DNA of 64,000 nucleotides, from contig CAUWAG010000016.1 in assembly GCA_963556695.1 (NCBI GenBank), forward strand, positions 124,001-188,000, written 5' to 3'. The translations under genes were made by a program, and so were the position numbers. Below the pieces are notes generated by a model that was given only the letters and a program-made list of their open reading frames with translations, did no database searches and was not told the DNA's origin. Each line of letters starts with the position of its first letter. Position 1 is the first letter of the stretch. Below are positions 1,680 to 34,123 of this stretch, piece by piece. This DNA comes from Anthostomella pinea (taxonomy: Eukaryota > Ascomycota > Sordariomycetes > Xylariales > Xylariaceae).

Positions 1680-4560
1680 TCAAATGATGGCGACCGAGCC
1701 CTTGACGGCCTGTACAGCACCCACGAGCTTGTTGTCCAGTTCATTCTGGGATGCCATCTCCTGCGTTACCTCTGCCGGGGGTATACTAGCCGCAGCCTCC
1801 GCTTCCTGACGCAACTGACGCTTGTGCATGAAATCGGTGAAGACTGGGAGCACCATGAGCGTCAGCAACGAACACTGCGAGGAACACCAGATCTTTCAGC
1901 ATGGGGGTACCACTTACGGACGAGGACAATGGCAATCAGCGCGAAAGCGAGAATACTCGGATATCCGTTCTCGAAGCGCGGTGACATTGTTTGGGGGAAG
2001 ATCAGGATTGGGAGGAAGGAGTTGGTAGCGTAGAAGAGCCCGTTCATGCTCGAGATGGTCAGGGCTCGCTCTTCCGCGTGGCCGTTGTTGATCTCGTTCG
2101 CCCAGGTCCATGTAACAGCGGTGACGTACTGCAGATCCCACGTTAGTAAGATTTCTGTAGAAATGGAGACAAAACGTCGTGTAGGGGTCAGAGCTTGATG
2201 CCCTTCACCCAGCCATTCGTGACCTGGTGGACCGGACGCAAAGGGGAATGGGGTTCACAGTCGAAGCAGGAAAGAAAAGGCGGAGAGGCAGAGAAAAGAC
2301 ACGTACTCCCGAAGCACAGAAAAAAAATGCCACGATCTTTGGGGTATCCGATTCAGGCCAGACGGTCAGGATGGTGGATCCAACAACCGTGGTGCAGAGC
2401 TAGAGATCCACGCATTAGCAACTCCAAGTTCCAGTCAACTCGCATGAGGAACTTGCCAAAGGCCCAGCAATCCAGTAAGCGCGATTTTGGAACATATCGG
2501 ACATCATGCCCCAACCAAAGTCTGTTACCATGCTGGTCAAATTGGCGCAAGCAGGAATGACATTCCTCAGCTGGACCGAGTAGCCAACAGATTCTACAGT
2601 TGATCAGTCTTGTTTCTCGCCTACACCAGAAGTTGCTTCGGGAACATTCAACTCACTGAGGTAGACGCTGAAGTATTGGTTCGCCTGGCATGAATTTCCG
2701 TACTGCTCCTTGTTAGTCTCGATGTTCCGTTCCGCACTTCCAAATTGGACCAATGAATGAGGAGAATAGTACAGTAGGGACGTACGAAGATATACATCAG
2801 GCACAAAACCCACCACCGCCAATTGCCGAACATGCGGCGGGCTAGCTTCCAGTCCATGACACCAGTGATGTCAGCTTTGCCTTGGTTTGCTGAGCGCTGC
2901 ATGGCAAGTCTCTTGTCGTCCTCGGTAATGTACCACGCTTTGGTATTGTGTGGGTAATCGGGCAGGAGGAACCAGACTGAATGGATGTTAGTCATTGTTG
3001 ATGACAATATAGGCTGGCAAAAGGGTTGTGCGGGAAGGCCGCGGGGCCGCTCTTCACGAGACATTGCAACGCTTTCAATGCCAGCCGTGATGCCATGAAT
3101 ATGACTCGTGTAGCTCACCTGAAAGCGCCACCGGAAGTGACATGCAGCCGCATATAATGTACAGCCAACGCCAACCAGGCAAGCCGAGGTGGCCGTCAAG
3201 AGTTGAGTAAATCCCCGCCTGGAGGAAACCCGAGGTCGCAGAACCAAAGAACCCCGTGATATGCCATATGGCTATCCTCTTCGCGAGCTCGGACTTGTTG
3301 TACCTGCGACAGGATGAACGTCAACTTTCCAGAATCGATGGACAAATATCCGGCAACGTTTTGCCGACGTCGAATGCATAAACAGGAATAGGAAAAGGAA
3401 GGTCATCATACCAGCTACCCATTAGGAAGATAATGATAGGGGAGAATCCGCTTTCGAAAATCCCGACCATGAACCGAAAAGCGTCTGGTAGCAAATTGGA
3501 GTCAGTAATTGCTTCATTTAGGTGGTTTGCCGAGAAAAAATGGAGTCGTAATGCGTGTCTCGGGAGCAGAAGCTCTTAACACAGGCTAGAAGAAGGAATT
3601 CACGCTCAGGGCATGGCCATATGGGGAAATGAAAGACTCGAAAATGTACATACACATCTCGTTGGGGGACCTGGCAGCAGCTTGCGCAAAGCTAACCTCG
3701 TGTTATCAGATGGCGCCCAAGGATCTTCTTGTATCTTGACCTACGTAAAAGCTGTCCACCCTATCTCGCATACTACGAGGCAGATTCGAGGACTGATCTT
3801 CAGAGCAAGCATGTTGGATGGAATCTGCATGATCGCGAAAGCAATGGTATAGCACACTGCCATGTGTCAGCGCCCAAGTCGGGGGATGATAACATCAATA
3901 CGAGGCGCAAGAGAGTCAAAGGACTTACTGAGCATATACGTGTACTCGTTTCCATGCATATTGAGGTCTTCCTTCATGCCAGACACATCTTCAATCTAGT
4001 CAGAATTTGGGGTATGAGAAGCACCATGGGAAGGGGCTCAGACTCACAGGCATTCGCTATGTTGCTTTGGTCTATGTACTTCATCCACTGTGTTGTGTAT
4101 CAGTTCTGGGTCGGACGAACATGGTGTTGGAGACGGGACTGACCCAACCAAGTGTTGAGCATATCAGAACTGTGGCCATCTACAGTCAGTACAAGATGAC
4201 ACCAGATCAACACAGGGAATGGATGGGCTGCTACGTACTGCCAAAGTCCAGTTTTCGCACGAGTGCACGCTCCTGAATCGCAGTATATCAGCACCGTTGA
4301 CAAGAGATGGGACAGGGTATGTCCTAGCTCGCCCCTTTACCGTCACCCCTTTTGAGTGGAACACAGAAATACACGAGGGAGGGAGAAAGAAGAGCAAGGA
4401 AACGCACTTCGGGGCTCTTCAGATGTTGATCAGCATCCCAGATGTGATATAGAATGCGTGTGCCAATGCCGATTTTCTGCGGCGGCACCATCTCCGTGTC
4501 GGCTACTCGAGTTGATGTGACTCGAGACATCTCGGTCACGTCCTTGCTGTCGGCAGCCAT
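1680..4560 (-). CDS. MFS anion:cation symporter (Dal5/Seo1/Liz1-type permease), 15 exons
   Basis: A 12-TM major facilitator of the allantoate/pantothenate/nicotinate permease family. Reading from ATG 4558-4560: cytosolic N-terminus to KSPE, ERALVRKLDFG, ILICSTLGW, WMKYIDQSNIANAYVSGMKEDL (TM1 signature), FAIMQIPSNM, FRFMVGIFESGFSP, GSWYNKSELAKRIA, WRWLYIICG, the loop PDYPHNTKAWYITEDDKRLA, SVGYSVQLRNVIPA, GPL, IVAFFFCASGYVTAVTWTWANE and a charged tail ending GSVAII. Fourteen introns are needed and every junction keeps frame. Two are unusual: the intron at 3485-3653 is a copy of a repeated introner-like sequence, and that at 2400-2456 is GC-AG with a GCAAGT donor. The open frame across all exons argues the gene is intact. 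The substrate cannot be told from sequence; organic anions or vitamins are typical for the family. Confidence 0.85.
2400..2456 (-). other. GC-AG intron in the MFS permease
   Basis: The donor is GCAAGT, the classical GC-type donor, and the acceptor is TCTCTAG. The joined frame reads GPL followed by LCTTVVGSTILTVWPESD, matching the expected transmembrane helix and loop of the family. No GT donor nearby restores the frame. Confidence 0.7.
3485..3653 (-). mobile_element. introner-like element copy 1 (intron of the MFS permease)
   Basis: A 169-nt intron reading GTATGTACATTTTCGAG at its 5' end and ending GCTACCAG. It splits a codon after its first base (phase 1), and splicing restores EMYAFRF. The sequence matches the introns at 32923-33092 (about 90% by eye over almost the whole length) and 9836-9985 (about 80%), which sit in unrelated genes. 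A candidate branch site ACTGAC lies about 20 nt before the acceptor. The flanking exon sequences are not related between the three hosts, so the similarity is confined to the intron. Confidence 0.8.
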
Positions 4561-5151
4561 GTTGGATAGGGATACAGATGACTATCCCAAGTGAATAGCT
4601 ATGATCAGGGGATAGGCAGGCATCCCAGATACAGCCATGCGTCAAGCGAGACTGGGAATTATATGATTTCGCCCAGCCGTCGTAAGGAGGTGGCCTATCT
4701 GTCGTATCATTATCGTATCAGCAATCCAGCATTATCGTATCAGCACTCCAGCCAAGTGATAGCAAAGCTTCTGGGCTCTCCAGTCCCTCCTATCTGGGGT
4801 TGGCAGCTATCAAGAACATCCGCACTTGGCTTCGACTGGGGTTCACGAGTCGAACTTGAACGTTGATTGTGTCTGATCAGTCGGCCTTCGGCCCGACGGA
4901 GGCCGTTGATAAGGTTCTGTACGAACCGCCGATCATCCTCTTCGGTCGGCGGCCTGTCCAAGCAGCGACAATCAAGCCGCCATGTGGAGCATCGTACGTC
5001 CGGCCGGGCTCTTTAGCAGACAACCATAAGATACAGGCTGGTCGGGATGGAGAGGAAGCAGATAAGTTGAGGGTATGCCCAACAATCCCAAGGAGGCCTC
5101 GGGCATCATAATCTGTAACTCTATCAGCATTATCTTGAGCAAATCATCGAA
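4561..5151. promoter_or_regulatory. divergent intergenic region with a short tandem repeat
   Basis: These 591 bases separate the start of the permease (reverse) from the start of the aldolase (forward), so they should hold both promoters. Two near-identical 22-base units built on ATTATCGTATCAGCA lie in tandem at about 4709-4752. Nothing else is recognised. Confidence 0.5.
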
Positions 5152-6522
5152 ATGGCCTCCAACACCAACACCAACAACCCGTCCAAGGTGCCTGCCGAGC
5201 AACTCGCTCTCGCGCGGGAATCATGCCGGCCCAATCTGGTCAAGCAGCTCATGAACGAGAACAAGCTGGCTCACTCGTTTGGCATCAGAATCGCTTTCAG
5301 CACTGAGATGCCCCTTGTCGCGAAGAGGGCTGGGTACAGCGCCATCCTGATGAACCTGGAGCACATGGCCATGAGCATCGAGACGATGAAGGACGTGGCA
5401 GTATCAGCTCTCAATGTCGGGTAAGTCGAGTTCGGCACTCGCCAACCCGCCCATTTCCTCGCCCGCTAGCCCCTGGTCCGTATCAGGACTATCGACGGAT
5501 AGCAGCCGACGGGTCCTCTTCTCCACCACACGCTTGATCGCAGCTAACTGAGGCCCACAGCATTACGCCGATGGTCGGTAAGGTGGCACCACTCTTCCTC
5601 GTCCCTCTGTTTCCCTGACGCTCTGGTCGCCGACCATCCTTCGATAAACCTGCGAGTTGATTACATTCGTTGGTATGAAACTCGGGATGGGCAATGATCG
5701 CTGACTCTGGATGTTGCAGTCGTTCCTACGTGTGCACCAGAATGGATCTCGCGATGCCTGGATTCGGGGGCAATGGCGGTGATCGTGCCCCATGTGAACA
5801 ACGTTGAACAAGCAAAGATGTGTGTGAATGCATCGAAGTTCCCTCCCCTCGTAAGGCTCGAAACTGACGTTCCGGTCTTGACATCTCGACTGACACATCG
5901 TGCAGGGCCACCGATCCGTCACAATGGTGACAGCGCTCACGCAATACACGATATCCCTCTCGTACGCGGCTATCGGTGAAGTCGTGAACGATGAGGTGAT
6001 GATCATGCCCATGATAGAGACGCAAGAAGGCGTGGATAATGTTGAGTAAGTTCCGCAAAGTCCATCTCGTCTCAGCAGCTCGTGGTTACTGACCACTCGG
6101 TAGGGCAATCGCTGCTGTTCCGGGTATTGACGCCCTGTTGGTCGGCTGTGCAGATCTATGTATGGAACTGGGGATTCCAGGGCAATACGACTCTGAGCTT
6201 TTCCAATCTACCGTTGCTCGCATCGCTGGCGCCGCCGAGAAAGCCAGCAAAGACGGACGTAAAGTCTTTGTGGGTTTGGGCGGACTTGAACCGAGACCGG
6301 ATTTGCTGGAAGAGCTCGCAAAGCGCCATCCGTCTATTCGGTCAGCTCGCCCATGATTTATCACTGCAGTACGAGAGTGGTAATGCTGACTTGTGCAACA
6401 GCTTCGCCATGGCAGGCCGAGATCTAGCTCTGCTGCTGGCTGGGATGTCCAAGCAAGCCGCAGCTATGAACGACATATCAAAGAGGCTTCAGGAGGGACT
6501 TGAAACCACCAGCTCAAGATGA
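5152..6522 (+). CDS. HpcH/HpaI-type aldolase (citrate lyase beta-like), 6 exons, 304 aa
   Basis: A class II, metal-dependent pyruvate aldolase of the HpcH/HpaI family. Exons are 5152-5420, 5561-5577, 5720-5850, 5906-6045, 6104-6340 and 6402-6522, summing to 304 codons plus stop. Family marks in order: AKRAGYSAILMNLEHMAMSI, containing the general-base His; VVVPTCAP; DSGAMAVIVPHVNNVEQA; MIETQEGVDNV, with the metal-binding Glu; AVPGIDALLVGCADLCMELG, with the metal-binding Asp; and a C-terminal FAMAGRDLALL. Such enzymes reversibly cleave 2-keto-3-deoxy acids or hydroxy-keto acids; the substrate is not known here. Exon 2 is a 17-nt microexon (CATTACGCCGATGGTCG) needed to give GITPMVVVP. No lesion is seen. 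It shares an upstream region with the permease, so the two could be co-regulated in uptake and breakdown of an organic acid; that is inference. Confidence 0.85.
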
Positions 6523-7251
6523 ACGCACAGGTGTCAATGGGGGCTCGGGTGAAGGGATCATGACTTGCCTGAAGGTCAAGGACCGGCCGCCGTTGCACGT
6601 CTTCGAGTAGATTCGCAACATCTATGGAGTGTGCATGACAATGATTGCTTGCCGCCTAGCTACGTACTGCAAGAAATGGACTATGGCAAGGCTGAATTGT
6701 GCCGGCTTTCGCAGTTTATGTATGTTTGATGTCACCTGTATCAAAGTGGCACACACCAGCGACACATGCGTGTTGCAAGTATCCAGTTATTCGCGACAGG
6801 ATGCGCTTTGGAGTAATCCGCAATCGTAAGACTTAGTTGGTGTGGAACTCCGCCGTGGAATCCTGTCTTGGCCCGAAGGTGTACCAAGGGAGCTGTGTGG
6901 CGGAGGCGGTCTCCAATCGGAGCGTTGTATACAGCCATAGTAATACCGAAACCGGACAGGTTTCCGCGACCCGCCTGCAGGGCTGGTGACAGCCGCGACT
7001 AGATGGCCGAGACAACTGGGTCGACGATCCTTCTCAAGGCTTCCAGTTTAAGCAACATCCAAAAATAATCATCAGAGCAGGGCCGAAGGAGTGCCAAAAG
7101 CTGCGGATCGTCATTCTCTAGAGAGGCTAGTAGGTGCATCCTTCGAGGCGGCCGTGTATAGCATGACAAGTCGTCAAGCAAGGAGGCCACCCTTCGTTCA
7201 CGTCGTCCTCTCAATCAAATCTACACAATTGGGCATTCCTTCATTCTCGCC
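6523..7251. other. intergenic, no gene recognised
   Basis: This 729-base gap lies between the aldolase and a small membrane-protein gene. I see short ORFs only, with no conserved domain, RNA gene or repeat. The 3' part should contain the promoter of the membrane protein. Confidence 0.5.
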
Positions 7252-8006
7252 ATGGCCATCCGACTGCTTTCCGATAATGATAGCGTACCAAGAACAAGGT
7301 GTCGTGTGATTGCCTCCGCAGCAGTCGCTACCATTAGCCTCATTCTGCTGGGACTATGGGCACTGCTCCAGCTCAATGCGACCCCTGAATTCATCGCATG
7401 GTCCAAGGAGCTCGCCGACTTCAGTAGCTCGTACACCCCGACAGAGCAACTTTTGATCGGCAGCTCAGGCTTCAGCTTGTCGGTATCGGCTGTCATAGAG
7501 GCGTGGCACTTCTCTCTCTTTGGGAAGGGTGCAGCGTGGGTAAGATATGTCCAGACTCGCAACTCCTCCTGACGGTCGCTGATGAGTATTGACAGACGAA
7601 ACACTGGCTGCGAAAGGGCTTCTTCTTGATAGTACTGGTCAACGCTACTCTCGCTGGCTCGGCATTTGTTCTGGCGTCAATCATTGGCACACTCGAAAGT
7701 CAAGGCGCTTTGGTGATCGCGCCATCTATGGACCTGCAGCTGGGAATAGACCAACACTCATCAGCTTCTACCACTTGGAGCTGCGAGTGGCACACTATAC
7801 AAAGCCTACATGGTGCGCAGGTCATTGGCCGAAGCTGCAAGACGCGACTGGCATCCCGCTGGTTGTGTTCTTGCATCGTCATGTTCTCTTTACTGCTTGC
7901 TGTCTCCGGCTGGTTGGATTTTCGACAGGAGGATGAGACGGAAGTAATGGCCTGGATTGCGGACAAGAAGAAAAGGAACGAAAAGGAGACGGACTCACTT
8001 GTTTGA
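7252..8006 (+). CDS. hypothetical membrane protein, about 4 TM, 232 aa
   Basis: Two exons (7252-7539 and 7596-8006) joined by a 56-nt GT-AG intron give 232 aa. Hydrophobic segments appear near residues 20-42 (ASAAVATISLILLGLWALL), about 68-85, 103-127 (FFLIVLVNATLAGSAFVLASI) and 195-214 (LCSCIVMFSLLLAVSGWL). The tail is highly charged (WIADKKKRNEKE). There are Cys residues in the last extramembrane loop but no motif I know. I do not recognise the family; it looks like one of the fungal-only small integral membrane proteins. The start is the first ATG in a good context (GCCATGG). Confidence 0.6.
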
Positions 8007-9006
8007 GCACATACCACTTGGCTTGGGGCAATGGGTGTTGGACGGCCGTGGTGGTAGTTCTGGGGGAAGAATAGGGGTATACGACATCCTCGACCAGTGG
8101 CGAAAGCCACGCTTGCCTTGAGTTGACTCGTCGAGGCAAGTGGTGAATGTCAAACATCGAGTCATGACCTACCTGGAGGAGCTCGTATCGGGCCCGTCTT
8201 AATGACGTCCCAAAGGACCGGCGTACTACTGTAGAAGAACCAAGGCCTTTATTCATGTCATCCTCTAGTGGATAGTCCAGATGATGATGCCAAGCTCCTC
8301 GGTGTATTTAGTTCTGAAAATCTAGGACCACCACCCGCATTCCCGCATTCTGGATCGCTGTTCCGGTACCCGAAATGCGGGGGTTAGGTCAACGGCGGGA
8401 CTTGGTAGCATCAACTAGTGCATGATGTTGCAGGTTGGTATGAACTCTACTGACGACACTGCCGTCTAGCCGTCCCACGAGATATTCAGTCTCTGTTCTG
8501 GTCAACGAACGGCGAGGATAGCTATGAGAGGATGTTTCTTTTCAAGTATTGGAAATGTGCTTCAGTTCACTGAGTGGGATAGCTGCTTGAACGAGCTGGA
8601 TCGGAATACTTGGCCGAGTTTGGATGCCATCGTCTGTTCAGAGGAAACCGACCTTGTAGTACAATATTAGCTTTCCCTAGCCCTTGGGATAGTCGGATGT
8701 ATGCTAGTGATAGACTAGTGTAGAAACTGATCGTAATACTCAGGGTACCCCTGATTTGCTACGTGTGTTACGTTGGACGGGAGCCAGAAGAGTCGCATCT
8801 GGACCTGGATCTTGATGTCATGGTCTCATTAGCGATGAGGAGAGGGAGCCTTTCCTGGGTAGGTCGGCATGTATAATGGGGAATGTTCTCAGTATATGAA
8901 ATTTGAATGTCCCGTGGATTGATGCAAGAACATCTTTTTTTTTATCACATCCCATCACTGTTCTGACGATTTTGCTGAATATCTTGCTTTCACTGTGCCT
9001 GTCGCG
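8007..9006. other. intergenic, promoter of the FAS1 gene
   Basis: This 1-kb gap holds no credible gene on either strand. A T run at 8936-8943 and a CT-rich leader just before 9007 mark the likely promoter and 5' UTR of the FAS1 gene. Confidence 0.5.
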
Positions 9007-10596
9007 ATGCAGATCAAAAACACCCCTATCCTGGCTTTGGCTTCTCTAGCCTCAGCTCAAAATTTGACTGGAAACTCAAGTTTGTCTGACATGCTTGGGT
9101 CGGTGGGCTCGCTTTCGAGCCTCAACGGTATGTATCGTGCCTCTTATTCCTGTTGTGGAATTAATAGAGGTATCAGTATTGTTGACGCAGAACCCGGGAT
9201 TTGTTGACCAGCTCAATAATATGCAAAATGGTATGCAATCGACCCTCTTTCGGTTCCTTTGACCAGGGCAGCCCCGCTTGACACACAGTTTGCTTGGATA
9301 TTCCCACAAATATTGCATCGCAGAGAGAGCACCAGCTTACCCCTGAATCCAGTAACCCTGCTGGCTCCGAACAACGACGCGTTAGCCAGCATCAACGGCG
9401 CTGGCAACTCCATGCTTGGTGACCCTAGCTACGTGCAGGCACTGTTGAGTTACCATGTGTTGAACGGGAGCTACAGCAATGCGTCCTTTAGCAACAGCTC
9501 GATGTTTATTCCAACGATGTTGACGAACTCAACGTTCAGCAATGTAACAGGAGGTCAGCGTGTTGAAGCCCGGATGTCGGGCCACAATATTACGTTCCTC
9601 AGTGCTGAGAAGCAGAACATCTCTTCAATCTCGGTCAGTAAAAGCCCGGCTTAATCCTCGACGTCGCAACTGACATTCTGCAGACCCTCAACTTCACCGG
9701 AGGCATGATCCACATCGTCGATGGCTTTTTGAGCATCCCTGGGAATGTCACCGACACCCTTGCGAATGCCAATCTAACGGCGGCTTCGGGAGCTATCACG
9801 AGCACTAATCTGTCGCGTCCTATTTCGAGCATGTCGTATGTACATTTTCGAGTCCTTTATTTCACCATATTCCCATGCCCTGAGCGCGAATCTCCTCTTC
9901 TAGCCCGTATCAAAGCCTTTGCTCCCGAGACACGCATTATGACTCCGCTTTTCTTCAGTAAACCATCTAAAAGGAGTAATTACAGGGATGTCACGATCTT
10001 CGCGCCCAACAACGCTGCCTTCAATGCCATCGGTAGCATTGTCTCGATTCTCACGCCTCAGCAACAGAACAGCATCATTGGCTACCACGTCGTCAATGGA
10101 ACAGTTGACTACTCCTCTCAGATGCTCCGCCGCGGGAACAGCACCCTGAAGACATTGACCGGCCCGGACATCACCATCAGCGTGGTCGACGGGCATATAT
10201 TCGTCAACGCAGCCCGCGTCACCGTGGCAGACATCCTGTGCGAGAACGGTGTCATCCATGTTGTGGATCAGTCAGTCATCCTATAGTGTCCCTATTGTTG
10301 GTCAATCTCTAACATGCTCCAGGGTGCTCAACTCCGAGAACGCTGCGACCAGCCCCAATGCTACGGCAACAACGGCCACGCCTGCTTTCACAGGCGCAAG
10401 CACTGGTACCGCGGGAGTCCCTTTCACGAGTGGAGTGTCAACTGCAACCACCACCTACCCTGCGGCTACTTCTGCTGGGGGTGACGACTCATCGGCCACT
10501 AGTTCTTCGTCCGACGGTTTGGCTATGCCTATGAAGACTGGCGCCGTCGGTGTTGTGGCACTTTTCGGTGGTGCAGCTGCATTGATGAACATGTAA
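9007..10596 (+). CDS. secreted GPI-anchored fasciclin (FAS1) domain protein, 6 exons, 391 aa
   Basis: Starts at ATG 9007 with a signal peptide (MQIKNTPILALASLASA). Exons are 9007-9127, 9168-9230, 9353-9633, 9684-9835, 9986-10270 and 10323-10596. Two FAS1 repeats are visible. The first contains VTLLAPNNDALASI, YHVLNGSY and MIHIVDGFL. The second contains DVTIFAPNNAAFNAI, IIGYHVVNGTVDYS, VNAARVTVADI and GVIHVVDQVLN. Many N-x-S/T sites suggest heavy N-glycosylation. A Ser/Thr/Gly-rich linker precedes a hydrophobic tail (GAVGVVALFGGAAALM) typical of a GPI anchor. FAS1 proteins mediate adhesion at the cell wall or surface. The first intron is only 40 nt. The fourth (9836-9985) is an introner-like element copy. 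Confidence 0.88.
9836..9985 (+). mobile_element. introner-like element copy 2 (intron of the FAS1 gene)
   Basis: A 150-nt intron beginning GTATGTACATTTTCGAG and ending AATTACAG, inserted in phase 2. Splicing gives SMSGDVTIFAPNN, the expected FAS1 strand. It shares the core CCCATGCCCTGAGCGCGAA and GCTCCCGAGACACGC with the copies at 3485-3653 and 32923-33092 but stops about 20 nt earlier at its 3' end. It is a multiple of three and has no stop in the host frame, so retention would insert 50 residues. Confidence 0.8.
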
Positions 10597-13705: not shown

Positions 13706-13738
13706 TCGCATACACAAGTCACAACCACGGACAAAAAG

Positions 13739-22195: not shown

Positions 22196-23077
22196 ATGGT
22201 CGTCTCCCCTCAAGTCACCCTCATCGAGCTCACCCCGGACGAGTTGTCGACGAAAAAAGTCGGCTCTCACAATCTGCAGGCCGCAGTCGAGGCGCTTCAT
22301 CGAGATGGCATCGTCGTCCTCAAGAATGCCGTTGATGTGGCACATCTCGACAAGCTTAACGAGAGAATGGTACCTGAGGCTCAGGAGCTCTATGCGAGAC
22401 CTTCCACGCATCGCAACTTTGGTCCCACCACGGGGAATATCCAACAAGAGCCAGTGCTAGAGGACGGCTACATCTTCGAGGATGTGTTGGCGAACCCTTT
22501 CGCAAGCGACGTGGTACAGTGCATGCTCGGCCCAAAACCACAGCTACGATTCTACAGCGCCAACACGGCTTTCAAGGCAACCGGCCGTCAACCTCCGCAC
22601 ATCGACATCGACTTTGACTTCCCTAGAGTCCCCTTTGGGTATTGTATCAATGTCAATCTCGTGGATACTTCGCCAGAGAACGGTGCGACGGAGGTGTGGC
22701 TCGGTAGTCACTCGGATACCGACAAGCATGTGCTCGACCAGTCGGTGAAGCACAAGCAGATCCGAGCAGAGCTCCTAGAGCAGCGGCGAAAGATCAGTCC
22801 GCCAATCCAACCCAGCCTGCCAAAGGGTTCCCTCGTCATTCGGGATTTCAGGCTCTGGCACGCGGGCATAGCCAACAAAACCGACGAGCCGCGGGTAATG
22901 CTGGTCTCGGTCATGTTCCCCCAGTGGTATCGCTCCAAAACCCTCAAGATGAAGCTACCGGCTAGCATCAAAGACAAGATCGAATGGGGTGATGTGGTTC
23001 CATGCGTTGACTGGATGCCGGAGGGATTCGACTATCTCCAGGGAGCTCATGACCATGACTTTACTCTGCAACCTTGA
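22196..23077 (+). CDS. phytanoyl-CoA dioxygenase (PhyH) family protein, 293 aa
   Basis: A single-exon gene starting at an ideal fungal context (GCCGCCATGG). The PhyH fold opens with LHRDGIVVLKNAVDVAHLDKLNE. The iron-binding facial triad is visible: PPHIDIDFDF supplies His and Asp, and FRLWHAGIANKTDEPRVML supplies the distal His and the 2-oxoglutarate-binding Arg. ENGATEVWLGSH is the conserved double-strand helix region. Members hydroxylate or desaturate lipids and secondary metabolites using Fe(II) and 2-oxoglutarate. There is no targeting signal at the N-terminus and no C-terminal peroxisome signal (ends TLQP). It is intact. It converges on a Zn2Cys6 regulator 147 bases away, and an O-methyltransferase pseudogene lies beyond, which suggests a metabolic cluster or its remains. 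Confidence 0.85.
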   Translation: MVVSPQVTLIELTPDELSTKKVGSHNLQAAVEALHRDGIVVLKNAVDVAHLDKLNERMVPEAQELYARPSTHRNFGPTTGNIQQEPVLEDGYIFEDVLANPFASDVVQCMLGPKPQLRFYSANTAFKATGRQPPHIDIDFDFPRVPFGYCINVNLVDTSPENGATEVWLGSHSDTDKHVLDQSVKHKQIRAELLEQRRKISPPIQPSLPKGSLVIRDFRLWHAGIANKTDEPRVMLVSVMFPQWYRSKTLKMKLPASIKDKIEWGDVVPCVDWMPEGFDYLQGAHDHDFTLQP

Positions 23078-23223
23078 CAGTCATCAGGGCAAGGTCATAA
23101 TGGCGGGCACGAGTTGCTCTCTACAATCGTTCCAGGGGAGGATTGGGCGCGGTGATGTACCTCCATGGGTTTGGCGATAATGCCGCTGGAAAGAATGCTA
23201 TCCACAGATAAGAGGTGGGAAGC

Positions 23224-24612: not shown

Positions 24613-25084
24613 GGTGAACCGTAACAGTAGTAGTCGCAGTACGGCTTAGGGTGGTGTGGCAAGAGTGGGAACTGAAGAGATATGGATCTCCACCTGGGGA
24701 CGGTGGGCACGCGGAGAAAAGTCGACCCAGATGCTTACTCAGCACGCCAAGGCCCGCCAGAGCCCCTTTATCAGCTTCAACAGCAACATTCTGGTGCGGG
24801 TGCTTGATCTCAGGTGTCACGAACACGTGCGCCGGTATTCGGCGGCTGATCACGGCGGAGTCTGGCGTCTGGAGTCGGGAGGTGATGAATACATGAAAAA
24901 CTTAGGGAACGGGCGGGATCAGCCCACCTGGGTTGCCCACGGTCAAACCCTACTGGTGATCTGACAATCGCCTCTACGCCATCCTCTAGGCACAGTCGGA
25001 ATCTTCTAGGTAGAGTCGGGTCGACTGATCCACCTCACCTTGCACGAGCCCTCATCGCCATGTCACTCATGACGGTCTACTTCC
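24613..25084. promoter_or_regulatory. intergenic, regulator promoter
   Basis: A 472-base gap upstream of the Zn2Cys6 gene and downstream of the O-methyltransferase pseudogene, both on the reverse strand. No other feature is recognised. Confidence 0.5.
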
Positions 25085-27040
25085 TCACGCCAACTCGCAC
25101 TCAATCAGGCTTTCGGTGCCATTAGCAACGGTCCAGATCTTGTTGATCTTCAGCCCAGCAGCCCCAAGCAGATCATGCCAATCCTGTTCCGTCCTCTCCT
25201 TGGCCGCGAGAAGCGTCATCATGAGGATGTCCAGACCCGTAGCCTCCCAGGCAGCGTTGCGGCCCGGAATGACGTTTTCGTTGATGAGCAGCTTGCTGTA
25301 GCCCGGCTTCATGGCCTCGGTGATTCGCGCCAGAACCTTCATGCAGACCTAGTCGGGCCAGTCGTGTAGGACAGAGTGCATGAAATAGGCTCGGGAACCT
25401 TAGTCAAGGCATTCACGGTCAGTGGTGTTCCAGGTAGTCACTCGGGATATGCTTTCCACATACCCTTCACAGGTTGTTCCGTGTAAAAGTCATGAGGCAC
25501 GCGCTCAATCTTCTCATCTAGGCTTTCGATCTGTCCAATAACAACAGGAAGATCTTCAAGAATGAGACGGCCAGGCGCATTGGGGTGCTTCTGCAGGAAC
25601 TCCTCGATGTCGTGGCCAGTGGAACCACCGATATCGACGAGGAAAGCTGAGCCATCAGAAGTGTCGGCGCCATCGATGAGTTCTTTGACCGGAAAGAAAT
25701 CCTCATCCATCCACTATGTCTTGTGTCAGCATCGCAATGTCAGGGCGTACACATACACAAGCTTTCTCAAACAGTAGCTCACTCCCCTACTCGAAGGCTG
25801 CTGTACATCACAGAGGTACGAGATCTACTCACGCTTGCCCGTCCTTAATGGTACCCACCCATGTGACGATTGAATTCAGGACCTAGAGAAGATTTCGCCT
25901 GAAGATGCTCGAACATATTGAGCTTCGTGTTGTATGCGTATTGAACTACGCCAGTGGGTTAGCAACATTGTTATTTTCAGTGACTTTCGGGGCGACATGT
26001 GCCAGCCGAGTGCTGCTGATGCAGAGACGAGATGTTGGGCCCGTGTTCTATTCTGGATCACTCACGCGGTCCATCACTCATGCTCTGAGGTGTCTTGTAT
26101 TCTGTCTTCCCGAGGAAGTCGGAGAATTGGTTGAGCGCTGATAGAAGACCTCCAGACCTGCATTTAGTTAGCTCGGGGTACAATCACACCGAGAGAGGTG
26201 GAAACCCACAAGACTGGATAGCCAGCGGCGATGATCGGGATGCATAGCGAGTTTGTGAAGTCGGTAGGTCTGTACTCATCAACTCCAGTCTCAATCACGT
26301 ATCCTAAAAGCCTGTCAGCAATCGATTGCTCGTGAATGCATCTTTCACCCCTGGAACCTCGTCTGCTGCGCTTCCAGAATTCCCTGGTGATTAACATAGC
26401 TATCTCTGACGACCATCCGAAGCTGGTACTCTCCAAGAAGACAGTGGCCAATCCAGGGGGTTGTTGGGGATTGTTGGGGTGTGTTACAAGGAGCACAGCC
26501 AGTGGCTCTCCCGAAAAAGCCTCCGCTATGGATGATGATAGGGAGTCACATACCCATAGCGCCGAGGTGTCGGAGAAGTCGAGCTGCTGCGATCAGTACA
26601 GGTCCTTAACGGCTCGGGTTTGTTCTGTCTTACCGATGACCGGAATGTCGACACCGACAGCTTTAGCGAGCTCCGAGGCCTTCTTGCTGCTTCCATTATC
26701 TTTGGCCATCACCCTGAACAGTCCGACGTCGACACCAACTGTGAGGGCTGTCATCGCGGCTGGCTAGACAATGTCAGGGGCTTTGGATTCCTCCAAGTGC
26801 GATTCGCAGCCATACCTGAGCCCAGCAATGCTTGATCATGGTCTCACGGGGAGTTTCCAGAGCCCTGACCAACTTTCGGGCGGTCTCAACCAGCTCGATC
26901 CTGGTGGTATCGTCGCCTTCGGAAATGTTGGATGCCAGCTTACTGATTTTCTCGGCATGGGTTCCGACACTACTCAAATCACAAGGCTTCAAGGCAATGC
27001 TGATGTCAGGGACATTGCCGTTGCTCTTGCCCTCGGACAT
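25085..27040 (-). pseudogene. SAM-dependent O-methyltransferase (fungal OMT type), two nonsense codons
   Basis: Reverse-strand gene from ATG 27038-27040 with about eight exons. Recognisable blocks: an N-terminal dimerisation helix (VETARKLVRALETP), PAAMTALTVGVDVGLF, RLLRHLGAMG-YVIETGVDEYRPTDF, SDGPLQYAYNTKLNMFEHLQ, then DEDFFPVKELID, the SAM-binding motif LVDIGGSTGHDIEEF and the catalytic YFMHSVLHDWPD, ending with ENVIPGRNA and ESLIECELA. All splice junctions keep the frame. Two stops break it: TAA at 25845-25847, where Gln is usual (GGYH-stop-GRAS), and TAG at 25349-25351, directly after HDWPD, where Glu or Gln is usual. Both remove the catalytic or C-terminal part, so the gene should be dead unless read through. 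Related enzymes methylate hydroxyls of polyketides, flavonoids or other aromatics. Confidence 0.82.
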
Positions 27041-27950
27041 GTTGTGTTAGAGAGGATGGTGTTACCCAGGCGCACAGCTCAAAGAAGCTTGCAAGGTTCT
27101 GATTCGATATGTTGAAAGAGATTGGAGCACGTTTTCCGATGAGGCGGTAAGGTCTCAAGGACTTGGACCTCGGAAAGAGGGGCGAACATCTCTTGTATTA
27201 TATCCCCTGACATGATCATACCATCAAAGGGACTGCGGAAGTTGAGGAGGTCCGGATTCCTCCGTTCACTGCCGAAATCCATAGCAGTAGGTGAATCGAT
27301 TCGACCTCTGCAGTAGGCTCATTAGGCTTCAGGTACAAGGTAGATCATTGGCGAAGCCTAGACGAAGGGGGCATCCCGTTGATGACACAGTAGTTGATAA
27401 GTCACAACCGCGCATTGGAAGATAGCAAGTGCATCTACCCCGGGCGTCCGAGCAACCAATTTACCAGCGCAGAGCACTTCACTGATTGCCAGTTCAGAGC
27501 CTCCGACAACCCTGGTAACGATGGCATGGATGGCAGAAAAGCGTTGGTTGCAAGTACCGGTATGTTTCCTGCCGAAAACTGCACACAGCAGACTGCCAAG
27601 CGGGGTTGGCCTGCGGGCTGCATGACACATTGATGCCTGCAGTTCTATCTGTCATGCTGCGACCTGTCGTTCTCGTTTTCGTTCTCGTTCTCTCGAGCCA
27701 AGCGGGCAGGGTTAGGATTATTGCTGTGAAGGCGATGCTGGGCAGAAATGAAGGATGAATACCCACACCCACACCCAGCGTCATAAAGGACTATAAGTCA
27801 GCACGAGGCTCAGGTTTTTGTCTTTCGGGGTATTGGGTTTGGCTCCTCCCTTCTGGTCGAAGAGTTTGAAAATCAAATAAATCGTAAATCGGGATTTAAT
27901 GCCCTTACTGCGGACGTCGACGACTACAACTCCAACTCGGCTTCTAGCAC

Positions 27951-27982
27951 CCCACCTCCACCTCCACCTCCACCTCCACCTG
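27951..27982. repeat. (CCACCT)n microsatellite
   Basis: About five perfect tandem units of the hexamer CCACCT. On the reverse strand it would encode a poly-Gly run in a doubtful ORF, which is probably not translated. Confidence 0.85.
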
Positions 27983-28079
27983 CACGAAAACACCACGGAT
28001 GTGCTGGGCGTATAATAAGACTGTCATCTTCCCCGGCTGCAAGGTCCCCAGTCTTGCACCGGTGGGTCATCTCCCAATC

Positions 28080-28480
28080 GTCAGGCGTACTGTGCAATGC
28101 GCATACACGCGCCACGCAGCCGACATGATACACAGCATGTAGGGGACGAACCCGTGTCCAAAGTACGACTCGAACCGGTCCCGGGCACCCAGGAGACGCC
28201 TTATCAGCATCCCGCTTCAGGCATACACCAAGTAAGGGGCTCGGGTGGTCAGTATCGAATCGAGTCCAAGCATGCCGATCAAAGCGGCACACAGTTCGGC
28301 TATCCCTGGACCCTGGTATAACTGCAAGGCACTTCCAACAATCTTCCCAATCTGCATTGGTCACACTCCCTGACATTATTGTGCATCTCGGCGCCGCACT
28401 CATTGGCCTGCCTAAAGCACGTCCAGACGACGCGGCGCCAGATATGCATGACCGTTTCATTGCATGCAGCTGAGCCGGTT
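28080..28480 (-). pseudogene. possible remnant of a membrane-protein gene
   Basis: One reverse frame reads KIVGSALQLYQGPGIAELC, AALIGMLGLDSILTTRAPYLVYA, a stop, SGMLIRRLLGARDRFESYFGHG and FVPYMLCIMSAAWRVYAH before another stop. The alternation of hydrophobic stretches with charged turns looks like a decayed integral membrane protein. I cannot name the family. A longer ORF in another frame over the same bases (27924-28505) has poor protein character. Confidence 0.3.
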
Positions 28481-28857
28481 GTATCACATACCTGGGTAGG
28501 CTCACGGTGCAGTCACCCTTTCGATAAGTCTCCGTCCGTCATGCTTCTCTCAAGTCTTAGATGTTAGTGCTACAGTCGTATTAATGAAATAAGCAGGTCT
28601 ACTGCATTTATCGACATGTGATGCTTATTCCAGACTGCTTATTCGATAGTTAATAGATACACATTTCCCTTTCTGAACGAGGCGTGTTTGGAGACCTCTG
28701 GAGTTTTAGTGTAATGTTACATGACTATCTACCGCCGGTGTTGTGCAACAGCAGGTTTTCTGTATCAAGCCTACCCATAGCCTTGGTATTCAGTCGGCGG
28801 GATACAGAGTTCCCACAACTCGAGCTGAAATTCCTTAAGCCTTGTCACAGCAAATCT

Positions 28858-29090
28858 AGAACAGTGTCGGAACCCGCCCAATTGCGTGCAAATAGCGTCC
28901 CAGGTGTACGGATGCCCCGAAATGAGCGGCCACAAACACCCATGTAAGCAGCGATCAGAGCCTCATCACCCATTCTGTCGGTATATTACATCCTTTCTGT
29001 CGGTACATCACATCAAGCAATGCACCAGTGGCTGCTTAGACCCAACTGTTCCGCAGTTTCACCCTCGTAGACCACTCACCATCCGTATCA
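28858..29090 (+). repeat. direct repeat, copy A (left of the Pth11-like gene)
   Basis: Contains AACCCGCCCAATTGCGTGCA, AATAGCGTCCCAGGTGTACG, AATGAGCGGCCACAAACACC and GCAGCGATCAGAGCCTCAT. The same order recurs at 31077-31265 with roughly 80% identity by eye. No terminal inverted repeat or coding capacity is evident. Confidence 0.75.
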
Positions 29091-29429
29091 TACATGTACA
29101 GAAGATGGAAAGGAAGTTCAGTACCCTTGCAAATCCGCACTTGACTACTTCGTAAGCACAGTAAGCTTCGCATGCATTCAGGCCCCTTTGGGAAAGTGAA
29201 TCGTGAGCTGATGGCGTGCGATGATTCGTGCTGTCATGGTCAACAATAGGGGTTTGAAGGGATGCCAGGCAGCTGTGGCCGCCCATCGACCAGTCTACCA
29301 TTCCAGAAGTTATATTCACCACGGGCAAACCTAATAAGCGTCGGCGCTGTCTTGAAGCTTGCGTCTGACTGTTTGGACTCACTCATTAATCAATCATCTT
29401 ACTATTTCACGACCCTCAAGATCAGTGTC

Positions 29430-30970
29430 ATGCTGTCGCCAGAGGTCGCCGCCCAGGATAAAGGTCCATCTGTTGTGGCCACCACGAGTGCCGTAATAGC
29501 TCTGAGCACCGTTTTTGTCATTGCAAGGCTGTATGTCCGGGCCCGCATGGTGGGAAAGCTTCAGGTCGATGACTACATCATTGGCTTTGCGGTGGTAAGT
29601 CACTGTCAAAGTGCAACTCTACAGCTTCGCCGAGTATCCAGACTAAATCGTCACTTGTTCAGATTCGCGGTTGGCTCACCGTAGGCTTTGCCACAGCGTC
29701 AGTCCGTTCCAGCAATGGCAAGCACGCACAGCTCCTAGACCAAGACCAGCTGTCCGGTGCGATACCGGTACTGTTGACAATGGTCGGCTTTTTTCCCGGT
29801 GTCCGGTCCTTCGCTTTCCCCAAGCTCGCCGCTGTATATCTCTTGACGAAGCTTATGAACACATCGAAAACACACCGGATCTTCCTATGGACATTGAGCA
29901 GCCTTTGCGTTCTGATTCTGTCGGGCTGCATTATCCTTCTTTTCGCGCAGTGTACCCCCTCGCGTGCCCAGTGGGACCTTAGCATTACGGAAAAGACTTG
30001 TTGGAGTCCCTACGTTCTCGTGGATTACAGTATTGCTGCTGGGGGTGAGTTCTGCGTCCACAAGCCGTTCTTTTGTTCTCCCCGTTTTCCTCCTCGCAAT
30101 CCCAGTCCGTGTTGCGGTACAGACCGATTCTGCTGAGATGATTGCATTATACGTGAAAGCTAATTCTCTCCCAGCCTTTTCAGCACTCGTCGATTTGTAC
30201 CTGGCCGTCTACCCCGCGATCGTCTTATTCAGGCTGCAAATGAACATCAAGAAGAAGGTAGCTCTGAGTATCTCCCTTGGTCTGGGATCCGTGGCATCCA
30301 TTATAGCCCTGTATAAATGCAGCCGTATCCCGGGTCTTGCAAGCAAAGACTTCACATGTAGGCGATGCCGCATCCACACTGTTCCAATTTGTTGACTAAT
30401 GGCGTTTAGACGACACGGCCGATCTCACGATATGGACTTGGTGGGTGCTTTCTGGAGCAGATCCAAACCGGGTGTCTGGCCATGCCAGGGACTTTCCCGT
30501 GTCCTCTCATTATCCCCCATGAGCCTCTCTGACAACTCCATAGTATCGAAGGCAGCGCCATCATCATTGCCGCATGCATTCCAGTGCTGAAGCCCCTCGG
30601 GGAACGCATCCTAGGCAGCCGCGCGTTTGGCAGCTCGAAAGATAGATACGGATACAAGAACTACGGCAATTCCCGCAGCGGGAACCCAAAGTCCGACATC
30701 GAGCTGGGCTCCAAGCAACGCCCTGCCAGATACCCACATGATCTGGATACCTTTGGGGACAGAAAAGATGGCAGTCAAGAGAGTATACTGCCTCTGAAGG
30801 CACCGAAGACGACCGGCGACCAGAGTCATGGGATTGTCCGCACGCAGTCGGTTACTATCACGGTTAGGAGGCCTCAAGGCCAGCCCCTATTCTTGTCCAG
30901 GACCCTAGCTGACGGTTTCCTGCAGTACGGAGAAGATGCGGTCCCAGTTGCACAGGAGCCATGGAAATGA
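29430..30970 (+). CDS. Pth11-like / fungal rhodopsin-domain integral membrane protein, 395 aa
   Basis: Five exons (29430-29594, 29663-30044, 30175-30357, 30410-30440, 30544-30970) give 395 aa. The fungal rhodopsin domain starts with a short extracellular tail, then TM1 ATTSAVIALSTVFVIARLYVRARMV and KLQVDDYIIGFAV, which is the typical R-x-Y-x-R-x(n)-D-D-Y turn. It continues with VYLLTKLMN, FLWTLSSLCVLILSGCIILLFAQC-PSRAQWD, DLYLAVYPAIVLFRLQMNIKKKVALSI and IEGSAIIIAACIPVLKPL. A polar cytosolic tail of about 115 residues follows. Proteins of this superfamily include Pth11-type receptors that sense surface or host cues; many are uncharacterised. The conserved Cys in FAQC and TCWSP are present. Near-identical repeats flank the gene on both sides. 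Confidence 0.85.
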
Positions 30971-31076
30971 GTCGAGTTGAAGCCAGGGGCTATTGCTTTC
31001 ACTGATACCGACATACCAATCAAAAGGCCGAAAGAGCTGTACCATACCACTGTACTATTCATCCAAAGAAACTCTT

Positions 31077-31265
31077 AGAACGGTGCTTGAACCCGCCCGA
31101 TTATGTGTAAAATAGCGTCCTAGGTGTACGGATTCCCTGAAATGAGCGGCCACAGACACCCATGCAAGCAGCGATCAGGGGCTCATGAACCTTCTGCCGG
31201 TACAATGGCATTGCTGGACCCAAAACTTCTTCTGTTCAGCCGCCAATACCACTCACCACCCACGA
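31077..31265 (+). repeat. direct repeat, copy B (right of the Pth11-like gene)
   Basis: Second copy of the repeat at 28858-29090 in the same orientation: AACCCGCCCGATTATGTGTA, AATAGCGTCCTAGGTGTACG, AATGAGCGGCCACAGACACC, then a shared TACCACTCACCA stretch near the end. The two copies bracket about 2 kb holding only the Pth11-like gene. Confidence 0.75.
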
Positions 31266-31342
31266 AGCACCTTTGGTCGACTTGAGTGCGTGCAACACCT
31301 GGCTCCTCAATAATCGCCGTGATATGATTTATTGTATAAAAA

Positions 31343-31440
31343 GCCCGTGTGGTCTAGTGGTTATGATTCCTGCGAACCCCAGGGCGGGAGCCCCTATTTC
31401 TGTTCAAAGGAGGTGGGTGGTTCGATTTCATCTTCGGGCA
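31343..31440 (+). tRNA. tRNA-like locus, probably a degenerate or intron-bearing tRNA
   Basis: The sequence starts GCCCGTGTGGTCTAGTGGTT, a good A box with the first acceptor strand, and ends with a B box GGTTCGATTTC and the second acceptor strand TTCGGGCA. GCCCG pairs with CGGGC, and the T stem GGTGG pairs with TCATC through two G-U pairs. Upstream lies TATAAA. Downstream T-rich tracts could end RNA polymerase III. CCTGC can pair with GCGGG as anticodon stem, but its 10-base loop lacks the usual U33, and about 23 extra bases separate it from the T stem. I cannot assign an anticodon. Confidence 0.45.
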
Positions 31441-32515
31441 TTGATTTTCTTTTTCTTTTGTAACTGTCCAGTCTCGCCTAATATTGCCAAGTACCGTGCA
31501 AAGAAACGATGTGAACTATGACAACATTTCCAAACCTGATCTTCTACTGGGTAGCAAGCCATGTAAATAGATATGCCCGAGGGGCTCTGTTGTGACTACA
31601 ATGCACTCCGAGTGGCGTGACATCGATATCTCGTGCAAGAGCATCTGAACAATGGGTTTCTTGCCCGCAGGTTGGCCAGGACTCAGGAGGCATACAATAA
31701 TTACTCTACCGAGCGCGCGTCAGCAAAATCGAGAGAGGCTTGCTTTTGCTTTCTGCCAAGGAGGTAAATGGGCATGGATGGATACTGTGGGTCCGAGGTA
31801 AAGGGGCTCCTCGAGGACATGGAGCGCAACACATCATTCAACGGTTCAGAGGAACGTAGGGCGTACTGGTAGTCGGGCCTTCAAAGACTACGATGCGCTG
31901 TTTCACACCGAATGGCCATCTCATCTTTCACATTCGAAGGATCTCTTCGAGTTTGACCCCGTTAGTGACGATTTGCAACGAAGCAAAAACGGGCCCAGCA
32001 TTGACGACCTGAAAACCAACGACATCCCTTAGTCGAACCTTCTCTCACCATGCCCGTTGCGCTGTTCGCTCGCGGCCAATCTGCCCAGATACCGGCTCCG
32101 GCAATTTCCATTAACGCCCAGCAGTCTGAGGCCATGAACCTGATGTCAAGAACCCTTCGCCGGACAATCAAGCTAGTATCCCCGAAGGTCTCTCGCAGAA
32201 CTTGCAGAGGTATGTCTTCAGGGTGTTGATTGAATGCAATTGGTCGGCTGTCTTCCACTTACGATTCTCTTGTGCGGATCAAGCGCGCCCCGAATCCCCC
32301 TTCAGGTCCGATTCCAACCAGTCTTAACAGCAGCAATATCGATGTCACTGTCTCGAGAGATCACACCGAAACTCGTAAGAACAAGGTTGGCATCCTCTTC
32401 GTCAGTCATGTGATTCGGTTGTAAGCCTACATGAACATTCATCGCGGGATGGTAGATTTCTACGATGACTGCCCATCCAGTCGAAATCGACAGAACGCCC
32501 ATCAATAAGACCAGC
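31441..32515. other. intergenic with a rearranged repeat segment
   Basis: No supported gene in about 1.1 kb. On the reverse strand a short open stretch near 31930-32045 reads VVGFQVVNAGPVFASLQIV and could be a relic. The segment at 32249-32425 shares pieces with 34930-35190 (separate entries). Confidence 0.4.
32249..32425 (+). repeat. rearranged repeat, copy 1 (order B-C-A)
   Basis: Three blocks also occur, on the opposite strand, at 34930-35190. Block B contains TTCTCTTGTGCGGATCAAGC, block C contains AACAGCAGCAATATCGATGT, and block A contains GAAACTCGTAAGAAC followed by GGTTGGCATCCTCTTCGTCA. Here B and C are contiguous and A follows. Confidence 0.65.
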
Positions 32516-34123
32516 TCATACCATCAGGGCAATATGCTTCAGCTCACTGCAAGTCGTAAAGTCAGCAAATCAAGTACCACTCCCTTCAAGCAAAGACAGA
32601 CCAAAACTCACCTCTGCACCTGCTCTCCCACCTTCATAGGCTCGTACACGACCTCGCCGCCCTCGTCCTTGCCGAGATTGAACTGCTGCGCGCGAATGGC
32701 CCGCGCCTGCTCGGCCAGCTCGGGGATGGGCACGAGATCAAAGTCGCTCGACAGGTGCCAGAAGAAGGTACTGCTGATGCGCACGAGCGGACGGTCGGGG
32801 TTTTCGGTGCGGCGCCGCTCGATGGTCGACAGCGTGGCGTCGTTGACGACGACCTCGTGGTAGCCGGCTTTGACGAGCCCGCCCGTCAGGTGCTCGAACT
32901 GCTTGCCGGCCTGGACGAGAAGCTCCTCGCAAATTTGAGTCAGTAATTGCTTCATTTAGGCATTTTGCCGAGAAAAAAATGGAGTCGTAAGGCGTGTCTC
33001 GGGAGCAAAGGCTCTTGACACAGGCTAGAAGAGGAAATTCGCGCTCAGGGCATGGCCATATGGGGAAATGAAAGACTCGTAAATGTACATACATAATTCC
33101 CGGCGGGGATCTTGACGGCCATCTTGCGGCCCGTGTTGCGCGCCCAGATGTGCAAACCTGGATACCGCGACCGGCCGTGGATGGTGAGGAAGTTTAGGTC
33201 CGTGTGGAAGCCGGCTAGGATGCTGTCTTTGCGGCCGTACTTGGATAGGTCCGAGGCGGTCGGGGCGAGGAGGTGCGGGCTGGGGGTTGGGTTGGTTAGA
33301 GGTGTCTATCAGTGATGGGATGGGAGATGCAGTGCGAGGTGTCGTGAGTGGTTGGAGTTGTTGGGGTTGTGTGAGAGTGAGAGTGCGTGTGCCTGTGAGC
33401 GTCGTGGGTGAGACTTCAGACTTACCCGTATCGTCCTGCGTTGCTGAAGGTCTCGGCTGCCAGACCCATGCCTACGGCGGCCATCTCTGCAAGTCCAGAC
33501 ACACTGAACCAGACATTGTTAGCCACTTCCGGCTCAAACGCGTTGCTCACTCCGTTCGTAGAGAGAGCTGGCACTCACGCGCTCTTCATACTGCTCCCCC
33601 ACTTCTCCATGACCGGAGTCCAGCGCTCCCGGATGCCATCGGCCTCGGGGATGATATTCGGCGCGTTGAGCCCCGGGAACTTGGTCTCGTAGGGCGCGGG
33701 GTCGTTCATGCGCCAGAAGAAGCGACACTTGGGATCGGGCGAGTGCGCCGTGATGTCCAGGGGCCGCTCGCTGGGGGCCAGGCGCTGGATGACGTCCAGA
33801 CACGGCTCGTCGACGGCGCACTTGGGCTTCTCGGTGTTCTCGAGCGTGACGCCGATCTGGTAGCCCAGCTCGGGCCGCTCGTCCTTTTGAAGAGTGGTGG
33901 TCGGCTGCGCGAAGTAGTCCTCCAACAGGTCCAGGAAGGCCACGTTGTCCGACTCGGCGACGCGGCTGTCGTGCAGAACAAGCGCGCCGTAGGTTATGAG
34001 GGCGCGGGCGGCCTTGGCGCACTCGGCTCGCGTGGCTTCTGAGTCGCGGGGCTGGTTGAGGAAGACGTTGAGGTCGATGACGGGGAGGTCCATCGACGAC
34101 TCTTCCGTCAGAGGGGTCGTCAT
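32516..34123 (-). CDS. isopenicillin-N-synthase-like 2OG-Fe(II) oxygenase, 5 exons, 383 aa
   Basis: Exons 33579-34123, 33426-33503, 33093-33279, 32612-32922 and 32516-32546 give 383 aa. The N-terminal DIOX_N-like part has LPVIDLNVFLNQP, AARALITYGALVLHDSRV and LEDYFAQP, then GYQIGVTLENTEKPKC. In the jelly-roll domain, GFHTDLNFLTIHG carries the iron-binding His and Asp, KIPAGNYLLVQAGKQFEHLTGG is the conserved core, and AGYHEVVVND carries the distal His. The chain ends in ELKHIALMV. Family members carry out oxidative chemistry on small molecules; the substrate is unknown. Intron 3 (32923-33092) is an introner-like element copy that exactly separates NY from LLVQ. No lesion is seen. Confidence 0.85.
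32923..33092 (-). mobile_element. introner-like element copy 3 (intron of the 2OG oxygenase)
   Basis: A 170-nt intron beginning GTATGTACATTTACGAG and ending GCGAGGAG, in phase 0. Splicing gives KIPAGNYLLVQAGKQ. It is about 90% identical by eye to the intron at 3485-3653 across nearly its full length, including the branch-site region AATTACTGACTC. An internal hairpin at 32994-33021 has nested stems GTGTC/GACAC and GAGC/GCTC. Confidence 0.82.

Follow-up and report, generated by a model that had tools for sequence, protein, structure and literature searches.

Introner-like introns multiplied in the genome of Anthostomella pinea, with a subfamily that ends in CG

Three related introns in the window

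The window analysed here comprises 64,000 bp of contig C12 (positions 124001-188000) from a genome that is most likely that of Anthostomella pinea F5 (Xylariaceae). It carries an MFS transporter gene, a gene for a protein with a fasciclin (FAS1) domain and a gene for a 2-oxoglutarate (2OG)/isopenicillin-N-synthase-like oxygenase, and each of these is interrupted by a copy of one element (Table 1). A preliminary description of the window had proposed that the three introns are copies of one sequence of 150 to 170 nt; the introns were found where it had placed them, and the shared blocks it had named could be aligned. The elements aligned along their length and the flanking exons did not. The likeness began at the donor and stopped at or just before the acceptor. 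Copies 1 and 3 were 92% identical over query positions 1-163, close to the 90% estimated before, and copies 1 and 2 were 83% identical over query positions 1-149. The intron phases of 1, 2 and 0 were also correct.

Table 1. Copies of the element in the window, their parts and one host gene
Feature	Position	Strand	Length (nt)	Remarks
Copy 1	3485..3653	-	169	Subfamily A body with tail TACCAG; phase 1; in MFS transporter gene
Copy 1, donor GTATGT	3648-3653	-
Copy 1, branch-site-like CTGAC	3501-3505	-
Copy 1, tail	3485-3490	-
Copy 2	9836..9985	+	150	Phase 2; older copy, with a deletion close to the 3' end; in fasciclin (FAS1) domain gene
Copy 3	32923..33092	-	170	Subfamily A; phase 0
Copy 3, branch-site-like CTGAC	32939-32943	-
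Copy 3, tail GAGGAG	32923-32928	-
Host gene of copy 3, our model	32516..34093	-		Exons 34093-33579, 33503-33426, 33279-33093, 32922-32612, 32546-32516

The host genes are unrelated, as had been claimed. The host of copy 1 was assigned to MFS_1 by a Pfam search with our joined exons. Removal of copy 2 joined SMS/DVTIFAPNN (a slash marks the junction here and below); the exon downstream of it matched Pfam Fasciclin (8.3e-8), and the upstream exon by itself gave no Pfam match. The host of copy 3 was identified by its homologues, many of which carry PF03171, while its single exons, searched alone, matched no Pfam family. The protein was 76-86% identical to the best 120 of 1833 homologues. In all of these 120, LLVQAGKQ or a similar motif directly followed Y, H, N or F and no residue lay between the motifs of the two exons, and 118 had a G three residues ahead of the motif. 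Because 120/120 of them fit that junction, the acceptor of copy 3 is placed at GCGAGGAG/; the alternative acceptor GCGAG/GAG was disfavoured by the same 120. The earlier intron coordinates thus fit at both ends, including this less obvious acceptor.

In the same genome, 14 further MFS-like stretches, two of them with a stop codon within the match, continued through the site of copy 1 without a break. This agrees with a gain of the intron at this site; at only 28-46% identity, however, the stretches also leave room for its loss elsewhere. The 2OG oxygenase gene had no paralogue in the genome.

Copies in the genome

A check for further copies had been set in advance, and the genome (53.7 Mb, 16 contigs) was searched with patterns for the 5' end (20 bases, up to 2 mismatches), the middle and the 3' end of the element. 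These gave 63, 62 and 77 matches, respectively, with no match to any of the reversed controls, and their union by position amounted to 97 places. Three whole-element queries each yielded 40-41 scored matches from 89-98 candidates. One additional place outside the 97, C16:2837038, was found in the series of searches with the CG-tail pattern described below. Of the 97 places, 75 proved on reading to be copies, one (L072) matched at the 5' end only and 21 were left unread. The 75 consisted of 73 copies located by a profile, on which most per-copy counts are based, and two others (L091 and L092). All 73 possessed the 5' end, and the alignment of 69 extended to the 3' end of the profile. Of the other four, three (L030, L050 and L080) were diverged or deleted near the 3' end and L087 was truncated. 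The similarity between copies ended at the splice sites, and the hosts belonged to different Pfam families.

The window held three copies where 0.12 were expected per 64 kb, a figure that is only descriptive since the window was chosen for its copies; the whole of C12 (247.5 kb) held four, with 0.45 expected. The fourth, L092 (C12:123137-123290), is an older copy about 0.7 kb to the left of the window. Two pairs of copies were less than 500 bp apart (C16:3191558/3191820 and C6:335675/336151). The members of the first pair (the former is L056) are separated by 262 bp, and the surrounding translations, read by eye, hint at more decayed copies. At L072 (C7:3047379) the first 26 bases or so of the element appear, also by eye, to start a possible intron of about 40 nt, which may be a deletion derivative.

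Structure of the element and its subfamilies

The profile-aligned length was 148-176 nt in 70 of the 73 copies and 112, 126 and 201 nt in the remaining three. The first six bases were GTATGT in 62/73; 72 started with GT and one (L027) with GC. The 3' region consisted of TACTGAC or TGCTGAC, followed by CTAATTTGC, CAAATTTGC or a similar sequence and then by a tail of six bases. Among 70 resolved tails TACCAG was the most frequent (19), followed by GAGGAG (12), TAACAG (10), TAATAG (6), CAACAG (5), TTGACG (5), TTGCCG (3), GAGAAG (2) and TAAAGT (2), and six others occurred once each. An AG acceptor was present at the end of 59 of these tails and one base earlier in two more (TAAAGT). The eight copies with TTGACG or TTGCCG, all of subfamily B, ended without AG; L082 (GAGGGA) was set aside.

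In a tree of 70 bodies from which the tails had been excluded, two clades were well supported: A with 12 copies (support 100/98) and B with nine (99/98). Many of the other inner branches were weak (35/67 in total), and the bootstrap had not settled. The end branches were 1.3-4.5% in A and 0.65-7.2% in B. The family thus consists of older types and two young subfamilies, which supports the earlier suggestion of an active or recently active element, as far as branch lengths can tell.

The tails did not always follow the bodies, and bodies that were 97% identical bore different tails. L001, which is copy 1 of the window, has an A body with the tail TACCAG and was placed inside the GAGGAG clade A. 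L014 also ends in TACCAG and was placed inside the CG clade B; ahead of the tail it differs from L019 at four positions. GAGGAG was present on three bodies outside A as well (L024, L051 and L067). In an approximately unbiased (AU) test a single origin of all 14 GAGGAG/GAGAAG tails was rejected (p 0.0104), for groups that had been named after the tree was seen. The same test did not reject clades A and B without L001 or L014 (p 0.258 and 0.423, respectively), so that the nested TACCAG cases are not forced. Taken together, the last six bases seem to behave as a separate module. Tails could be exchanged by recombination between copies or by gene conversion, or they could be set at insertion.

Insertion sites

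Junctions were counted in 69 of the 73 copies, leaving out three without a resolved 3' end (L030, L080 and L087) and L082 because of its tail. Exact removal from donor to tail rejoined the open reading frames (ORFs) in most copies, which by itself shows only that the insertion was scarless. None of the 69 junctions had a perfect flanking repeat of 4, 5, 6 or 8 bases; repeats of two bases occurred at seven junctions and repeats of three bases at three. The insertion is therefore seamless, with no target duplication of at least 4 bp, and the mobile unit is the intron itself, with the donor at one end and the acceptor at the other.

Orientation was assessed with a codon score trained on seven long ORFs of the window (8,097 bases). 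By this score 64/73 copies were sense to the host gene, and at a margin of at least 8 the ratio was 41 to 3. A cruder test based on ORF length gave 55 sense, 11 antisense and 7 ties. Six of the nine antisense-scored copies were reassigned to sense when the proteins were read: L015 (aquaporin, MIP) and L038 (MFS_1) by Pfam, L024 as nitrilase-like with a Pfam value of 2.7e-4 that lies below the curated cut-off, and L080 (carbamoyl-phosphate-synthase-like), L086 (acetyltransferase-like) and L028 (secreted protein) by eye. Most of the copies read therefore lie in coding sequence and are sense to the gene.

The dinucleotide TA was split by 20 of the 69 insertions, whereas the flanks predict 2.1-2.4 (p about 1e-13 to 1e-14). 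TpA is thus a favoured target. The proportion was 6/9 in B, 4/12 in A and 10/48 in the others. L030, L080, L091 and L092, judged by eye, had C/G, A/C, G/G and G/G at the junction, and with them the count became 20/73. In 15 of the 20 T/A sites the insertion was in phase 1, within a tyrosine codon (T/AY), compared to 142 of 358 background TA steps; these phases came from the codon score, with five corrected by hand. The bias might also be caused by selection for good splicing after insertion.

Copies ending in CG

Eight copies of subfamily B end in CG (L018, L019, L022, L023, L036, L037, L038 and L039, the last at C6:335675). The pattern GACTCTAATTTGCTTGMCG with 0-1 mismatches found these eight and nothing more in the genome; with 3 mismatches there were 34 matches and 9 control matches, and only the rows with 0-1 mismatches were used. 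The hosts of the eight belong to the Pfam families Fung_rhodopsin, Luciferase, Ribonuclease_T2, Pro-kuma_activ, UbiA, CN_hydrolase, MFS_1 and ApbA. The Pro-kuma_activ host is tripeptidyl-peptidase-like, with the domain match upstream of the junction. In the nitrilase host (L037) exact removal up to the CG yielded YPSAFTVPTGRAHW, and the 14-residue spacing at this junction was retained in 119 of the 119 homologues listed. The fit of the other hosts to motifs presumed to be conserved was judged by eye. For the eight copies, splicing at a 3' splice site other than AG is the most likely reading. A TG acceptor three bases upstream of the CG would likewise leave the frame intact but add one residue to the protein.

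It is somewhat unlikely that the CG copies are instead fresh insertions that break their genes, or that they are removed by other GT-AG pairs to give altered proteins. All eight lack AG at the end of the element, and frame-keeping GT-AG pairs were present near the ends of seven, L019 being the exception; both findings speak for this alternative and count against splicing at CG. The net change caused by these pairs was -3 nt in L036, L037 and L022, -6 in L023, -15 in L018 (with the regular donor GTATGT), -24 in L039 and -27 in L038, so that five of the seven alter at most 15 nt. The database gene model of the A. pinea nitrilase, P0001, also uses such a pair and reads YPSACMAHW. However, the GT-AG alternatives swap or drop residues, and most of them need weak donors (GTCTCT, GTACAT). 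The nitrilase model loses FTVPTGR from the stretch whose length is conserved in the homologues; in this one case, at least, the automatic gene model of the genome can err at a copy. Furthermore, each B element contains stops in the frame of its host, so that its retention breaks the host protein. The scanned host ORFs were open; about 10 new stops would be expected had the hosts drifted without constraint over the end branches of the copies. The probability of no new stop was 4e-5, or 0.6% with the branches halved, in an estimate that is rough because the branches are upper bounds and the ORFs were taken from stop to stop. In Drosophila eight GT-CG introns are annotated, all supported by RNA-seq and all with a similar alternative, according to the part of PMC4528330 that deals with them.

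Origin of the copies

The family is interpreted as introner-like: each unit is non-coding, measures about 150-175 nt and is in itself a whole spliceosomal intron, and the units have spread to about 100 places in the genome. The number of copies, the unrelated hosts and the coincidence of element ends with intron ends bear out this part of the preliminary description. An intron-RNA intermediate accounts best for the scarless insertion, in sense and mostly in genes, of a unit identical with the spliced intron, and we infer spread via the excised intron RNA as the preferred mechanism; with this mechanism included, we regard the interpretation as moderately likely. The intron RNA would be excised and debranched, and that of several older copies could fold as a rod-like hairpin that brings the ends together. 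It would then enter transcribed DNA, preferentially at TpA, by being joined to a broken or nicked strand or copied into it; the choice of TpA hints at such a lesion as the point of entry. The new copy would be tolerated because it is spliced from the first transcript onward.

Folding of the RNA gave a mixed picture. Some copies of type D were predicted to form a rod with a 5'-proximal GUAC paired to the bases just before the acceptor; for L057 the fold had -46.1 kcal/mol and a z score of -3.15. Among 15 copies tested for an end-to-end duplex against simple base shuffles, four of the five of type D (L057, L063, L074 and L086) had z scores of -2.3 to -4.0. After insertion the copies appear to decay freely.

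Several results weigh against this account of the family. The end pairing was weak in A and B, which spread last (ten copies of A, B and C had z scores of 0.8 to -1.6), and in L070 of type D (-0.6). Copy 3 folded no better than shuffled sequences (-0.45), and covariation in 16 D copies, with a two-sided change in one of 40 pairs, did not support a conserved RNA structure. The flanks matched each other more often than shuffled ones, both as 6-mers (126 compared to 103.3, standard deviation 8.4) and as 2-mers (46 compared to 36.6, standard deviation 4.9). This excess is unexplained, and in the 6-mers no single base pair stood out at any position. The orientation of L056, L065 and L087 (truncated at the 3' end, in a stretch with no clear ORF) was not settled, and L028 is sense by eye only, contrary to the codon score. 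Finally, a preference for TpA would equally be expected of a DNA-cutting transposase or endonuclease.

Such an enzyme would act if the copies were a non-autonomous DNA transposon of the type of miniature inverted-repeat transposable elements that contains both splice sites; a transposase would cut at TpA with no or a very short duplication, and the sense orientation of the survivors would be due to selection. The partly symmetrical ends of some copies agree with this, as does the fact that CG-tailed copies spread although they lack the usual acceptor; a copying step that needs no splicing would easily allow this. Most introner families outside the ascomycetes also look DNA-borne in the account available from PMC9860276. 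We nevertheless consider a DNA transposon unlikely, since there is no target duplication of at least 4 bp and few or no copies among the 73 are clearly intergenic or antisense, although intergenic insertions should be neutral. Of the features that mark introners as DNA transposons, target site duplications (TSDs) of at least 4 bp were absent from the 69 junctions, and instead of terminal inverted repeats (TIRs) there were partly complementary ends in some copies only. That the copies are ordinary old introns, or were copied with gene or segmental duplications, is highly improbable: several hosts come from large families (MFS, peptidase), but the likeness stops at the splice sites, the hosts differ and copy 1 is absent from 14 paralogous stretches.

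A fuller account can be put forward as tentative: the last six bases would be swappable and not strictly inherited, the spliceosome would accept the non-AG 3' splice site of the CG subfamily, the copies would spread without AG, and insertion would be directed to TpA, scarless and in transcribed coding DNA. All of this holding jointly is possible, with the balance somewhat against it. Where new introns come from has long been asked, and few systems offer young insertions that can be counted. A sequenced isolate that has about 100 copies, with a defined target preference, two young subfamilies and one subfamily that lacks AG, makes direct tests possible, namely of the need of splicing for spread, of the choice of target and of the flexibility of the 3' splice-site rule.

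Comparison with known systems

The A. pinea family is new and was not found described in the literature searched, which excluded subscription papers and preprints. The main text of the A. pinea genome paper (PMC10763133) does not mention intron, RNA-seq or transcriptom, and 'Anthostomella' is absent from the main text of PMC12403724. In style the family is close to the sister stwintrons and 'cropped' canonical sister introns of the Xylariales, which, as far as described in the sections available from PMC8469720 and PMC12403724, occur in Hypoxylaceae and Xylariaceae, the same order and partly the same family as A. pinea. Similar introns in unrelated genes, seamless and sense insertion and the lack of a target duplication are common to both, and so is near-terminal RNA pairing, which can run from intron base 5 to a few bases before the acceptor. 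Free decay after insertion has likewise been described for sister stwintrons (PMC8469720). In contrast, no bias in the flanks is reported in these two papers, and for Hypoxylon Fekete et al. (PMC8469720) observed none, whereas T/A is favoured in A. pinea.

In a [D1,2] stwintron the outer donor is split by an internal intron after G1 and before U2, which leaves a G ahead of the inner donor. The base before the donor in A. pinea was T in 32, C in 16, G in 15 and A in 6 of the 69 copies; with no fixed extra 5' G, the copies are not [D1,2] stwintrons. The Xylaria 5'-NTIRE-10 sequence and the 8-base core of the 3' one were found in none of the 73 copies.

Introner-like elements of Dothideomycetes, in the portion available of PMC4457414, are likewise multiplying introns of several families, with young beside dying ones. 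They belong to another fungal class than A. pinea, a Sordariomycete, and the likeness is one of description; a target preference for AG/GY is ascribed to them in PMC8469720, compared to T/A here. Among introners in general, as outlined in PMC9860276, introns arise from multiplying elements, and A. pinea fits the ascomycete outliers without TIRs or TSDs, while it differs in some end symmetry of older copies, the TpA target and the CG-ending subfamily. The introner elements of Amoebophrya (PMC7789003, as far as excerpted) are also mobile introns that violate the GT-AG rule. Their splice motifs are many and they carry direct repeats of 3-5 nt, whereas in A. pinea there is one acceptor change in one subfamily and otherwise mostly GT-AG.

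Other repeats in the window

Apart from the three copies, the window contains a direct repeat of 82 nt (28890-28971 and 31110-31191, 89% identity) and, around 32.2-35.2 kb, an inverted pair at 32240-32404 and 35055-35185 (88-95%).

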